Part shown: positions 28,718-31,397 of the stretch, one piece after another
Layout: the number at the start of each line of letters is the position of its first letter
Position numbering within the stretch: position 1 is the stretch's first letter
DNA from: Ignavibacteriota bacterium
GTDB lineage: Bacteria; Bacteroidota; Ignavibacteria; UBA10030
Length of the DNA stretch: 32,091 nucleotides
NCBI GenBank assembly: GCA_003142475.1
Contig: PLMK01000006.1
Coordinates: 77,667-109,757, forward strand
Direction: 5' to 3'
Position numbers and translations under genes: made by a program
Notes under the pieces: generated by a model
Database searches by the model: none
The model's input: only the letters and a program-made list of their open reading frames with translations
Told to the model about the DNA's origin: nothing

Positions 28718-29440
28718 TCAGCCAAAGCAAATAAAATAATCCAGCGAGATTCCAAGTATCCAGTGTGTTGTGATTGAAGGCCAGATTGATTTTGACCGAT
28801 AGACCATAATTCCCCACACAAGCCCGCCAAGAATAGAACTGTAGATCTCGCTGTCTGGTTTGCCAATATGGACTATGCACGAGAGCGCTACTTGCACAAG
28901 TATTGCACCCCACACGCCGAAGCGGTCAGTCAATCCGAATTGCATAAATCCGCGGAAAAATATTTCCCAGCCGAAGTAAAAAATGAAATAGGCAATAGCG
29001 TGGATTGCAAACATCTGCATCGAGTCACCGGCGCCTTTGTACAAAGGATACTCCGCAATGTATTGCGGATCTTTTGCTGAAGAATAGGAGAGCGCTACCA
29101 TGACAGCTCCCACAACCAGCGCTGCGGGAATCCAGAATTTCCAATCGCCAATTTGTAATCCGTAATCAGTGAGAGATTCTTTAAAAATAAACTTGATAAC
29201 TGCGATGACAACGATACCGAGGAGAAAGAAGGCAGATAAATAATTGTACCACTCCGCTGTCATAGCAACGCTGTTGAAAATTACAAGTTTGTCACTGAGA
29301 TGAGCAAGGTAAAATGATTTTGAACCGTAGTATTTCCACGTTGTAAGAACTAGGGGTGCAAGGAGAAGTATTATTACTGGTTTCTTGTTCTCTTTGGAAA
29401 AAAGTTCTGGAAGCGAAAAGAAGTTCTCAAATCTGTTCAT
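28718..29440 (-). CDS. CPBP-family intramembrane glutamic protease
   Basis: This 240-residue membrane protein of the CPBP (CAAX-protease/bacteriocin-processing) family has about six to eight helices. Motif 1 is GWEIFFRGF (E159, R163): the first Glu of the usual EE-x3-R pair is Trp158. Motif 2 is LSCIVHIGKPDSEIYSS with His191, followed by GGLVWG. Motif 3 has His226 (TTHWILG). The WE-x3-R plus HIGKP..E pattern recalls a recurrent subfamily, so this is probably a lineage feature and not decay, but protease activity should not be assumed. Its start overlaps the stop of the SDR gene (ATGA), and PAP2 begins 7 nt after its stop. It may process or scaffold a membrane-lipid enzyme. Confidence 0.84.
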   Translation of the reverse strand: MNRFENFFSLPELFSKENKKPVIILLLAPLVLTTWKYYGSKSFYLAHLSDKLVIFNSVAMTAEWYNYLSAFFLLGIVVIAVIKFIFKESLTDYGLQIGDWKFWIPAALVVGAVMVALSYSSAKDPQYIAEYPLYKGAGDSMQMFAIHAIAYFIFYFGWEIFFRGFMQFGLTDRFGVWGAILVQVALSCIVHIGKPDSEIYSSILGGLVWGIMVYRSKSIWPSITTHWILGISLDYFICFG

Positions 29441-30456
29441 GATTTATTCTTCCGAAGTTGACGTTGCTGTAAAATCCACTCGTAAGTCAACCGTATGCCT
29501 TCCTTAAGCGGAGTAAAGGTGTAGCCAAGCTCACGTTCGGCTTTGGTGCATGAAAATGCCCAGTCCTGCAAAAATGTTTCTACCCAACCCGTTGTGATTT
29601 GCGGATAGATGCCGAATTTTTCGGCTGCGAATTTCTGGATACTGCCGTAACCAAGTCCCACTTTAGGCGGAAGATTGATCTGGAAATGCTTCTTGCCACT
29701 TACTTCATCCACCAGTTCGTAGAAATGTTTCAGAGATACATTTTCGCCGCCGATAATATATCGCTCGCCGATGCGCCCTTTTTCCATTGCAAGAATATGT
29801 CCACGTACGAGATCATCTACCAAAACATAATTCCCAATATTGACACCGCGGTTGAGAAGAATTGGCACTAAACCGCGGTCATACTGATCAATCATTAAAC
29901 TGACAGAATTTCCTTCCGTCATTTTACCGGGGCCATACACGCGCGTGGGATTTACCATGACGACAGGAAATTCTTCCGCCGCCATTTTAAGTGCTTCTTT
30001 TTCTGCAATGGCCTTTGTCTCTTCATACTCTGTGTAGTATTTCGATGTGATGCGAAGCATTGTTTCGTCGCCGATCACGCCGGGCGTAGTAGGTCCAAAA
30101 GTAACGATGGTTGACGTCCACACAACACGCTGAATGCCGACTTGCCTGGCGGCATCGAATACATTTTGCATACCGAGGACGTTATGATCATGGAATATTT
30201 TTGGATCTCGCGCCCAGTTTTTAGCGTATGCTGCAAGATGAAAAACGTGCGTGCAACCATTCATTCCTGCAATAAGCGATTCGCGGTTCATAATATCGCC
30301 TTGCACTAATTTGATGCGCTCGTGGTTTAATCCGTCGCGATTACTTGCGGCGCGTGTGAGTGCGTGAACCGTGTGTCCCTGATGGACCAGTTCGTTGACA
30401 AGCTTTGTACCGATAAAACCGGTAGAACCGGTAACAAAAATAGTTGTTGGCTTCAT
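29437..30456 (-). CDS. NAD(P)-dependent extended SDR (dihydroflavonol-reductase/HpnA-like)
   Basis: This short-chain dehydrogenase/epimerase has the N-terminal Rossmann motif FVTGSTGFIG, DIMNRESL, VFHLAAYAKNWARDP and an active site with WTST and Y-E-E-T-K, then VNPTRVYGPG. The start at 30456 (MKPTTIFVTG, 339 residues) is preferred: the longer frame to 30594 only translates the hairpin repeat DNA upstream (SLPRTRES, SRFRGND), a well-known false N-terminus. It resembles dihydroflavonol-4-reductase, 3beta-hydroxysteroid dehydrogenase and HpnA-type proteins, so the substrate may be a sterol- or isoprenoid-like lipid or a nucleotide sugar; this is not settled. It heads the operon SDR-CPBP-PAP2 with an ATGA overlap to the next gene. 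Confidence 0.86.
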   Translation of the reverse strand: MKPTTIFVTGSTGFIGTKLVNELVHQGHTVHALTRAASNRDGLNHERIKLVQGDIMNRESLIAGMNGCTHVFHLAAYAKNWARDPKIFHDHNVLGMQNVFDAARQVGIQRVVWTSTIVTFGPTTPGVIGDETMLRITSKYYTEYEETKAIAEKEALKMAAEEFPVVMVNPTRVYGPGKMTEGNSVSLMIDQYDRGLVPILLNRGVNIGNYVLVDDLVRGHILAMEKGRIGERYIIGGENVSLKHFYELVDEVSGKKHFQINLPPKVGLGYGSIQKFAAEKFGIYPQITTGWVETFLQDWAFSCTKAERELGYTFTPLKEGIRLTYEWILQQRQLRKNKS

Positions 30457-30492
30457 TTTCTCTATTGGGTTCAATATCCCAACGCTTGCGTC

Positions 30493-30576
30493 GTCATTCC
30501 CGCGAAAGCGGGAATCCACAACAATAGACTCCCGTGTACGCGGGAGTGACAAAATACCTCGCTGCTTGCGGCGAGG
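30493..30576. repeat. REP/MITE-like element of three 20-nt hairpins
   Basis: Three palindromic units stand in tandem just upstream of the SDR start. ATTCCCGC-GAAA-GCGGGAAT (30496-30515) has a perfect 8-bp stem. ACTCCCGT-GTAC-GCGGGAGT (30528-30547) has 7 Watson-Crick pairs and a U.G pair. CCTCGCTG-CTTG-CGGCGAGG (30557-30576) has 8 pairs including one U.G. The first two are also bounded by a 12-bp inverted repeat (30493-30504 with 30539-30550), so the 58-nt unit can fold as one long stem. This is the dispersed repeat whose translation yields peptides such as PRKREST...SRVRGND in many genomes. Copy number here is one within the window. Confidence 0.75.
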
Positions 30577-30623
30577 ATTGTTTATTGACTTCACCCTACG
30601 CCAAAAAACCGGTGGATAAGTAA

Positions 30624-30644
30624 CCCTCTTCTATAAGAAGAGGG
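30624..30644. repeat. 9-bp hairpin
   Basis: CCCTCTTCT (30624-30632), a 3-nt loop and AGAAGAGGG (30636-30644). No poly-T follows on either strand, so it is not a convincing terminator for the SnoaL-like transcript. Confidence 0.55.
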
Positions 30645-30769
30645 GATTATTTCGTGGTTATCCTAAAATGTTGAATAATTACAACTGTGATTAAGGTAGA
30701 AAAAAAAGGTGCAAGAGACAACGAGGAACTCTAAATTCTACGGTCAATGTATATTATACAATTAGATCT

Positions 30770-30791
30770 AGTCAGGACTTGTGTCTTGACT
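30770..30791. repeat. 9-bp hairpin with tetraloop
   Basis: AGTCAGGAC (30770-30778), loop TTGT, GTCTTGACT (30783-30791), with a single G.T pair. Its size resembles that of the hairpins at 30496-30576. Confidence 0.5.
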
Positions 30792-30838
30792 GTATCGGTA
30801 TTTTAGCGTTGAGTTTTAAGATAGCGCCTGGTTAAGCA

Positions 30839-30858
30839 GTACAAATCTAAATTTGTAC
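30839..30858. repeat. 8-bp hairpin over the stop codon of the SnoaL-like gene
   Basis: GTACAAAT-CTAA-ATTTGTAC is perfectly palindromic. On the minus (coding) strand the loop TTAG holds the TAG stop of the SnoaL-like gene, and the hairpin encodes its last residues VQI. No T tract follows. Confidence 0.5.
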
Positions 30859-31242
30859 ACAATAATCAACTTGTTTAATTATGAGTCCGTGGGCAAATGT
30901 CAGAAATGATGCCACGCGATATTGAACCAAGGATCCTATTTTGAAAGTGCCGATTGTCGCAGAAGCAGTACCTTTCCACTCCAATTCAAGCGCAACGCTG
31001 TTATCTGTGGCAACTAAATTGTGGATTGTCATTTGGCGATCTAGAAATAGCGAGAGAAGCCTGGCGGCAACATTACGTAGAAATGCCTGATTGCCATGTT
31101 GTCCAGAGGGAGTAGAGGGCAGAGGTAATTCGAACCACTCAACATTCTCAGCATAACAGGTATCAACCCATTCGAGAGATCGTTTGTTATAAAGCTCGAT
31201 ACATCTTCGAGCCAATGTTTCTACTTCTTGAGAATTTGTCAT
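30847..31242 (-). CDS. SnoaL/NTF2-like small protein
   Basis: This roughly 131-residue protein has the cone-shaped SnoaL/NTF2-like fold. MTNSQEVETLARRCIELYNK is the N-terminal helix, followed by WVDTCYAENVEWFELP, the usual second helix and first strand of the fold. VALELEWKGTAS and FKIGSLVQYRVASFLTFAHG are the curved-sheet strands, and the ending IIKQVDYCVQI is typical. The family includes isomerases, cyclases and many non-catalytic binding proteins, so no reaction is assigned. ATG 31242 is preferred over TTG 31287, which only adds 15 residues. Neither has a strong ribosome site. It is apparently monocistronic, with hairpin-rich DNA downstream. Confidence 0.75.
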   Translation of the reverse strand: MTNSQEVETLARRCIELYNKRSLEWVDTCYAENVEWFELPLPSTPSGQHGNQAFLRNVAARLLSLFLDRQMTIHNLVATDNSVALELEWKGTASATIGTFKIGSLVQYRVASFLTFAHGLIIKQVDYCVQI

Positions 31243-31397
31243 GCGTATTTCATCCGTTTGCTGGTTAATTGACCGGATCTCCGCCAAAGACGAGATGATA
31301 AGTAGTTCGTTCCGCCTTCCGTAAAAGAATTGGTGGACAAGTCAGCGAGAGATCGGTTAACCAGGTTCTATATTAAGTCTATATAGTGATTACATAA

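Follow-up and report, generated by a model that had tools for sequence, protein, structure and literature searches.

The 129-bp stretch at positions 30458–30586 is very probably a tnpA-less mini-element of the IS200/IS605 type ('PATE'), which carries a head-to-head dimer of CGTC REP units in its interior and was moved by a TnpA acting in trans. The window, i.e. the whole stretch of 32,091 nucleotides that was analysed, is part of the 3.58-Mb assembly G000 of an Ignavibacteriota bacterium, here called the host. Full-length IS200/IS605 elements of related genomes have ends homologous to those of this element, and in other genera too the REP dimer directly adjoins the left-end hairpin, with register and orientation unchanged. 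The features of the region are as follows.

29437–30456, minus strand: NAD-dependent epimerase gene (Pfam PF01370, 142 bits; HpnA is the nearest NCBIfam model, but its 261 bits fall short of the cut-off of 368)
30452–30457, plus strand: left flank TTCATT, presumed target site, homologous in position to TTTATT or TTTAAT left of other copies
30458–30586, plus strand: composite mini-element, 129 bp, with IS200/IS605-type ends and a CGTC REP dimer as interior
30458–30493, plus strand: left end (LE), with hairpin TTGGG..CCCAA (30465–30482), guide AATA (30473–30476) and hairpin ACGCTTGCGT (30482–30491)
30492–30518, plus strand: CGTC REP unit 1, formed by hairpin 1, with CGTC tag, 8-bp stem, GAAA loop and CCA tail
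30496–30515: hairpin 1, 8 bp, loop GAAA
30527–30550, minus strand: CGTC REP unit 2, formed by hairpin 2, head-to-head partner of unit 1
30528–30547: hairpin 2, 8 bp including one T.G pair
30553–30586, plus strand: right end (RE), with guide AATA (30553–30556), hairpin 3 and cleavage site TTTATT (30581–30586)
30557–30576: hairpin 3, 8 bp, loop CTTG, one T.G pair
30624–30644, no strand assigned: hairpin 4, 9 bp, loop ATA, outside the element
30687–30735, minus strand: promoter-like block upstream of the epimerase, 90% blastn identity to relative L045
30770–30791: hairpin 5, 9 bp including one G.T pair, found by eye and absent from the program-made hairpin lists
30839–30858: hairpin 6, 8 bp, 4-nt loop
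30770–30858, no strand assigned: hairpins 5 and 6 together, outside the element and without a second copy in the host assembly
30847–31287, minus strand: SnoaL-like ORF, its stop codon inside hairpin 6

The outer frame was recognised from longer matches in relatives, in which homology extends from about 30452 to 30587 on both sides of the REP pair. On its left side are GGG..CCC and ACGCTTGCGT-like hairpins; its right side has the order AATA-hairpin-GATNNTTTATT. REP unit 1 has the layout CGTC-ATTCCCGC-GAAA-GCGGGAAT-CCA, and hairpin 3 of the RE reads CCTCGCTG-CTTG-CGGCGAGG. The LE is homologous to that of the full-length elements L165 and L184 and of other mini-elements, while the RE is identical to the RE of the full-length IS in genome G085 at 28 of 34 positions. 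With 129 bp, the composite is too short to encode a transposase. Its right boundary is exact by homology; the left one is inferred with an uncertainty of ± 2 nt. The window copy departs from the consensus in having TTCATT instead of TTTATT at the left flank (C, not T, at position −4) and a partly decayed LE stem. The TTCATT flank leaves one mismatch to the LE guide AATA, and the RE guide matches its own site. An interpretation of the outer frame as a target duplication around the REP dimer was rejected, since the left and right hairpins differ consistently and full-length ISs carry the same ends.

The first-pass annotation had described six hairpins between 30493 and 30858, and all of them were located at the coordinates given there. 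Its statement that their density is far above that of the rest of the window is borne out: 13 strict hairpins (perfect stem of at least 7 bp, loop of 2–8 nt) occur in the 32-kb window, four of them within these 366 bp, a number reached by none of 1000 dinucleotide shuffles of the segment (mean 0.15, maximum 3). Hairpins 1 and 2 also pair end to end as claimed, with arms of 24 nt (30493–30516 and 30527–30550) that are 79% complementary. Two short hairpins left of hairpin 1, at 30465–30482 and 30482–30491, had gone unmentioned; they are the left end of the element. When the host assembly was searched with 30480–30870, five further matches were found at four other places, all inside 30482–30586, and hairpins 4–6 had no other copy at E ≤ 0.001. 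The idea of six units of one kind was therefore dropped. The proposed REP/MITE-like, multi-copy character holds for hairpins 1–3, which have matches elsewhere in the host and in relatives, and fails for hairpins 4–6, which are single in the host. A landing site that gathered separate palindromes is not what is found, as hairpins 1–3 and the short left hairpins make up a single 129-bp element and no second copy of the remaining hairpins was found in the host assembly at that threshold.

The host genome has a second composite (contig C59, 1411–1563), with an interrupted REP unit 1. At another locus, L099, the two sides of the frame enclose only 26 unrelated nt, and the copies at C70:572 and C37:17926 retain just a piece of the right end. 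CGTC copies are few in the host itself. At L097/L175 (G001) and L003 (G000:C70), a TCCCGC..GCGGGA hairpin seems to interrupt the RE hairpin, which would bring nesting to a third level.

The right hairpin is present in 13 of 61 genomes, host included. Five copies in G059 lie 17 nt past the stop codon of an IS200-type TnpA fragment; these tnpA-bearing copies stop at contig ends. A protein search with the fragment in 98 genomes of the order yielded matches only in G059 and G085. Locus L165 of G085 consists of a left end, an open frame of 152 codons and the right end AATACCCCGCAGCTTGCTGCGGGGATGCTTTATT; L165 and L184 have the full arrangement of an LE ending in ..GGGTCTAATACCCCGAAGTTTGCTTCGG, tnpA and RE AATACCCCGCAGCTTGCTGCGGGGATGCTTTATT. 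This right end is identical to mini-element right ends in G055 and G018. The TnpA of G085 scores 126.6 bits with NF033573 (transpos_IS200, cut-off 55) and 121.4 bits with Pfam Y1_Tnp, and matches the IS608 TnpA 2a6m (1.8e-15). With REP_Tyr_transpos it reaches only 19.6 bits (cut-off 80). Hence the earlier suggestion of a Y1/RAYT-type transposase is upheld as far as the Y1 (HUH) link is concerned, but not for RAYT, as the enzyme encoded between such ends is of the IS200 type. A class-wide TnpA search gave matches in 18 of 391 genomes, and inspection by eye found an LE and/or RE of this kind at 20 of 25 TnpA loci; the ends differ at the distant loci L201, L206, L207 and L208 (27–33% identity), and those of L200 are unclear. 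An IS200-type TnpA was not found in the host at the thresholds used, its Y1 matches being one RAYT and one weak RAYT-like gene. The window copy is therefore probably stranded.

Right boundaries are sharp in G059, G055 and G018. Flanks diverge after TTCATT in the five G059 copies with a 3' portion of tnpA, and after TTTATT in all five G055 copies examined (of six). For the window there is no exact empty site for comparison, the leaders having diverged. In IS608, as described in the relevant parts of PMC5934647 and PMC6006769, the cleavage site base-pairs with a guide that lies 5' of the hairpin foot. Among 44 right ends, a foot (RAT) starting with G goes with TTCATT in 24 of 24 cases and one starting with A goes with TTTATT in 18 of 20, so that 42 of 44 are matched; repeated copies of one element, five from G059 and five from G055, are among them, and the ends do not count as independent. 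The Fisher probability of 1.8e-10 ignores kinship and repeated copies. The 2 × 2 table omits 47 of 91 hairpin matches, most of them left ends, for lack of a nearby T[TC]ATT site. Two right ends in the table are exceptions: L107 combines an A foot with TTCATT, and L115 is an apparent LE-RE fusion. In these sequences, the foot base tracks the cleavage site, in keeping with the IS608 guide rule.

Stem conservation was assessed with 28 right ends chosen by hand from the 44. In this alignment 94% of the cells are paired, and covariation amounts to 0.399 compared to 0.173 after shuffling (0 of 500 shuffles as high; slid controls 0.05–0.10). Pair changes on both sides (4 vs 3.3 shuffled, 187/500) and the number of pair types (12 vs 10.2, 64/500) are unremarkable; they are the measures least inflated by relatedness, and neither stands out.

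Distinct combinations of LE and RE were compiled in 33 rows, of which 12 have tnpA-sized interiors (468–635 nt, some genes broken), seven are near-empty (23–36 nt), 11 contain a CGTC dimer and two contain other hairpin pairs. The remaining row, L125, was mispaired by the script and left unclassed; L173 was counted as abutting despite an LE misplaced by the script. The combination of AATA and TTTATT found at the window's right end occurs in only one of the 12 tnpA-sized elements, the other 11 having GATA or GATC with TTCATT. In the 11 rows of the CGTC group the REP dimer abuts the LE, and the tag starts exactly at the end of the left hairpin (..CG/TCATTCC). A search for this junction pattern gave 14 places, spread over 10 of 391 genomes, and none with the reversed control. 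An LE hairpin precedes it at 13 of the 14 places, the exception being L176. The nine genomes concerned span five families (f1, f2, f3, f5 and f12), the last of them outside the order.

As the junction pattern itself fixes the orientation, orientation was judged on eight composites found via the RE pattern, which does not require CGTC. REP unit 1 lies beside the LE in all eight (L098, L100, L101, L109, L112, L113, L116 and L117), which are two each from four genomes including the window's and hence not fully independent. Two composite copies in G018, compared from the LE to TTTATT, are the same at 129 of 130 positions, and both lie 3' of TTTATT. Their flanks agree at chance level (13/60 and 10/60), which reads as transposition of the whole composite in that genome, with the REP pair inside. 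In G004, L090 and L108 keep both sides of the frame around a different hairpin pair. Together with the 26-nt interior of L099, this comparison supports the conclusion that the outer parts are an element of their own. The interior REP sequence differs among genomes, with CCCGC or CCGGC.

Several variants were observed besides these. The G055 loci L104, L114, L118, L122 and L125 are mini-elements with identical right ends, L125 being shortened, and at least L104, L118 and L122 carry cargo of a second kind, a long hairpin pair of another sequence (GTCATGCTGAAATGC..). L115 (G004:C13, position 1501) belongs to the same IS group and apparently consists of the termini alone, with LE fused to RE. A search of viral contigs with one exact variant of the frame core gave 0 matches, and a literature search for five printed forms of the hairpin core gave none.

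Hairpins 1 and 2 fit the published CGTC-1 description of a CGTC tag, an 8-bp stem with A and T first, a 4-nt loop and a CCA tail. Of 98 genomes of the order, 22 contain the strict unit pattern, at 109 places in total; the reversed control gave no match. The tags are TGTC (76), CGTC (29), AGTC (3) and GGTC (1); that of the window is CGTC and neither GTAG nor GTGG. One stem position is C-G in 65 units, G-C in 43 and mismatched in one (n = 109), in agreement with the earlier remark that shape is kept while sequence diverges. A partner tag [AG]TGAC is possible within 110 nt for 74 of the 109 units, where chance is estimated, without a control, at roughly one in six. Clear IS200/IS605-type ends surround three of the 109 units (the window, L219 and L320). 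Two further units, L306 and L307, have weak ends (LE/RE mismatches 8/7 and 7/10; best of the reversed control 8 and 8). With three clear and two weak cases of 109, such ends were rejected as the general carrier and main route of CGTC REPs. By a rough estimate, well below 0.01 chance landings inside such an element are expected among 109 units, and the nesting is hardly due to chance.

How the dimer came to lie between these ends can be read in a second way. It might have inserted by a route of its own into the left-end palindrome of a mini-element that was already present and empty, a course comparable to that of the SMR-A elements, which are described in PMC3119063 as targeting near-terminal palindromes of Haloquadratum PATEs. 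Near-empty mini-elements of 23–36 nt do exist, one of them in the host (L099), CGTC dimers are common outside such ends, and the interior REP sequence varies by genome. We consider this course possible but rather unlikely: junction and orientation are the same in all eight RE-pattern composites, though only four genomes are represented, and the G018 copies moved as a unit, a later movement with which insertion would still be compatible. A broader proposal, that CGTC REPs, an old superfamily, were in general seeded by TnpA as cargo of IS200/IS605 mini-elements whose outer ends then decayed or were lost to leave 'orphan' CGTC dimers, appears doubtful to us. If it were true, the host copies at C70:572 and C37:17926 would be intermediates.

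Spread of hairpins 1 and 2 as a REPIN driven by a REP-associated tyrosine transposase of the host is very unlikely. The host does have a RAYT gene, L007 (G000:C46, 1381–1899; NF047646, 121.6 bits, cut-off 80), but the hairpins seen by eye on both sides of it are of the GTAG type (GTAGCCG..) and not CGTC REPs, so that it is apparently an ordinary REPtron. A second, diverged Y1_Tnp gene, L008 (G000:C70, 1438–2172), stays below the cut-off of 80 with 50.1 bits and has GCCGATGATG repeats on both sides. A CGTC REP dimer is located about 110 bp upstream of this ORF, on one side only, which is the closest CGTC-Y1 pairing seen in the host and a point in favour of a RAYT. A relaxed form of the hairpin leans the same way at L153 (G043:C16), where identical CGTC-like hairpins (CGTCACCCCGTCGG..CCGACGGGGTAGA) lie in the same orientation at 1281 and 1954, on either side of a Y1 gene. 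The other end of L153 reads GTAG, and the locus is possibly a link between the two REP classes. Against such a link, tblastn with nine Y1 proteins against 106 stretches (147 kb) around strict CGTC units revealed no Y1 gene, and 30 Y1 loci (94 kb, of over 150 places) are without a strict CGTC unit. Considering L008 and these 30 loci, a general tie of CGTC REPs to RAYT genes was rejected. The relevant sections of PMC3733652 report CGTC REPs from five phyla, not associated with transposase genes and without a dedicated one. In the accessible text of PMC12306157 and PMC5896051, the sole mention of CGTC repeats is a reference.

The element sits in the 5' leader of the epimerase gene, where the CAT of the TTCATT flank is the start codon (ATG on the minus strand). 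An intergenic gap (30457–30846) separates this gene from the SnoaL-like ORF. The nearest named relatives of the epimerase are from Ignavibacteriae/Bacteroidetes MAGs (best 86% identity), and in four relatives (L043–L046) the leader upstream of the ATG is free of the element. The conserved block at 30687–30735, with a blastn identity of 83% to L043 over 30687–30739, is the putative epimerase promoter. Around hairpin 4, a 50-nt unit (30614–30663) is closed by GGATAA/TTATCC. Even after subtraction of the element, the leader in the window exceeds those of L043 and L045 by about 50 nt (counted by hand), roughly the size of this unit; a second insertion is possible. That the hairpins are local RNA structures of the epimerase transcript (terminators or leader regulation) and not mobile DNA is most improbable: they do lie within the leader, and 30452–30590 (139 nt) folds with z = −4.8 on either strand (DNA energies, not RNA), but copies with shared ends occur beside unrelated flanks and in other genera, the relatives' epimerase leaders lack the hairpins, and Rfam at gathering thresholds finds only a tRNA elsewhere in the window, so that an RNA family was rejected.

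Movement as a tnpA-less IS200/IS605 mini-element would proceed as follows. A TnpA supplied in trans would bind the LE and RE hairpins on one strand, and the AATA guide found at each hairpin foot would pair with the cleavage site TTTATT. A single-stranded circle would be excised and inserted 3' of a matching site. At the window, this insertion would have taken place just beside the epimerase start codon, with the REP pair riding along.

The PATEs of Haloquadratum walsbyi are one of the closest known systems. As described in the sections of PMC3119063 that concern them, they resemble the composite in having no terminal inverted repeats, in sharing near-terminal palindromes with IS605-type transposons, in being transposase-less by size and in carrying other small repeats nested in their palindromes. 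Terminal-only fusions and core deletions are also described there, comparable to L115. The composite differs from them in its bacterial host and in its CGTC REP dimer, and full-length relatives with a single tnpA-sized interior occur here. QMITE2 of Coxiella burnetii, according to the pertinent part of PMC5896051, is likewise a MITE that contains a REP; unlike the composite, it has a GTAG REP, terminal inverted repeats and flanking direct repeats. PATEs derived from IS605-type transposons, small repeats that target their palindromes (PMC3119063) and a REP inside a MITE (PMC5896051) are thus already in print in the portions cited. A literature search, in the texts available to it, found no report of CGTC REPs inside IS200/IS605 ends.

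With IS608 and ISDra2, as the corresponding passages of PMC5934647 and PMC6006769 present them, the elements share LE and RE hairpins, a cleavage site matched by a guide 5' of the foot, insertion on the 3' side of a short fixed sequence and, in the full-length relatives, a Y1 TnpA. They differ in that the window copy has neither tnpA nor tnpB and that the cleavage site is TTTATT or TTCATT. The co-varying base lies at −4 from the right end, while GAAT/TCAA of IS608 would pair at −3 and −4, a register that is our own reading. The matching of foot and cleavage base (24/24 and 18/20) provides a natural cross-genus test of the IS608 guide rule. Compared to the CGTC-1 REPs, as characterised in the part of PMC3733652 devoted to them, the window units have the same CGTC tag, 8-bp stem starting with AT, 4-nt loop and CCA tail, and form a head-to-head dimer of two different units. 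The CGTC repeats published there are without transposase association, whereas the dimer described here lies inside IS200/IS605-type ends; its repeated, register-exact nesting and the near-identical copies in G018 provide a definite carrier for some of the copies, a minority at least.
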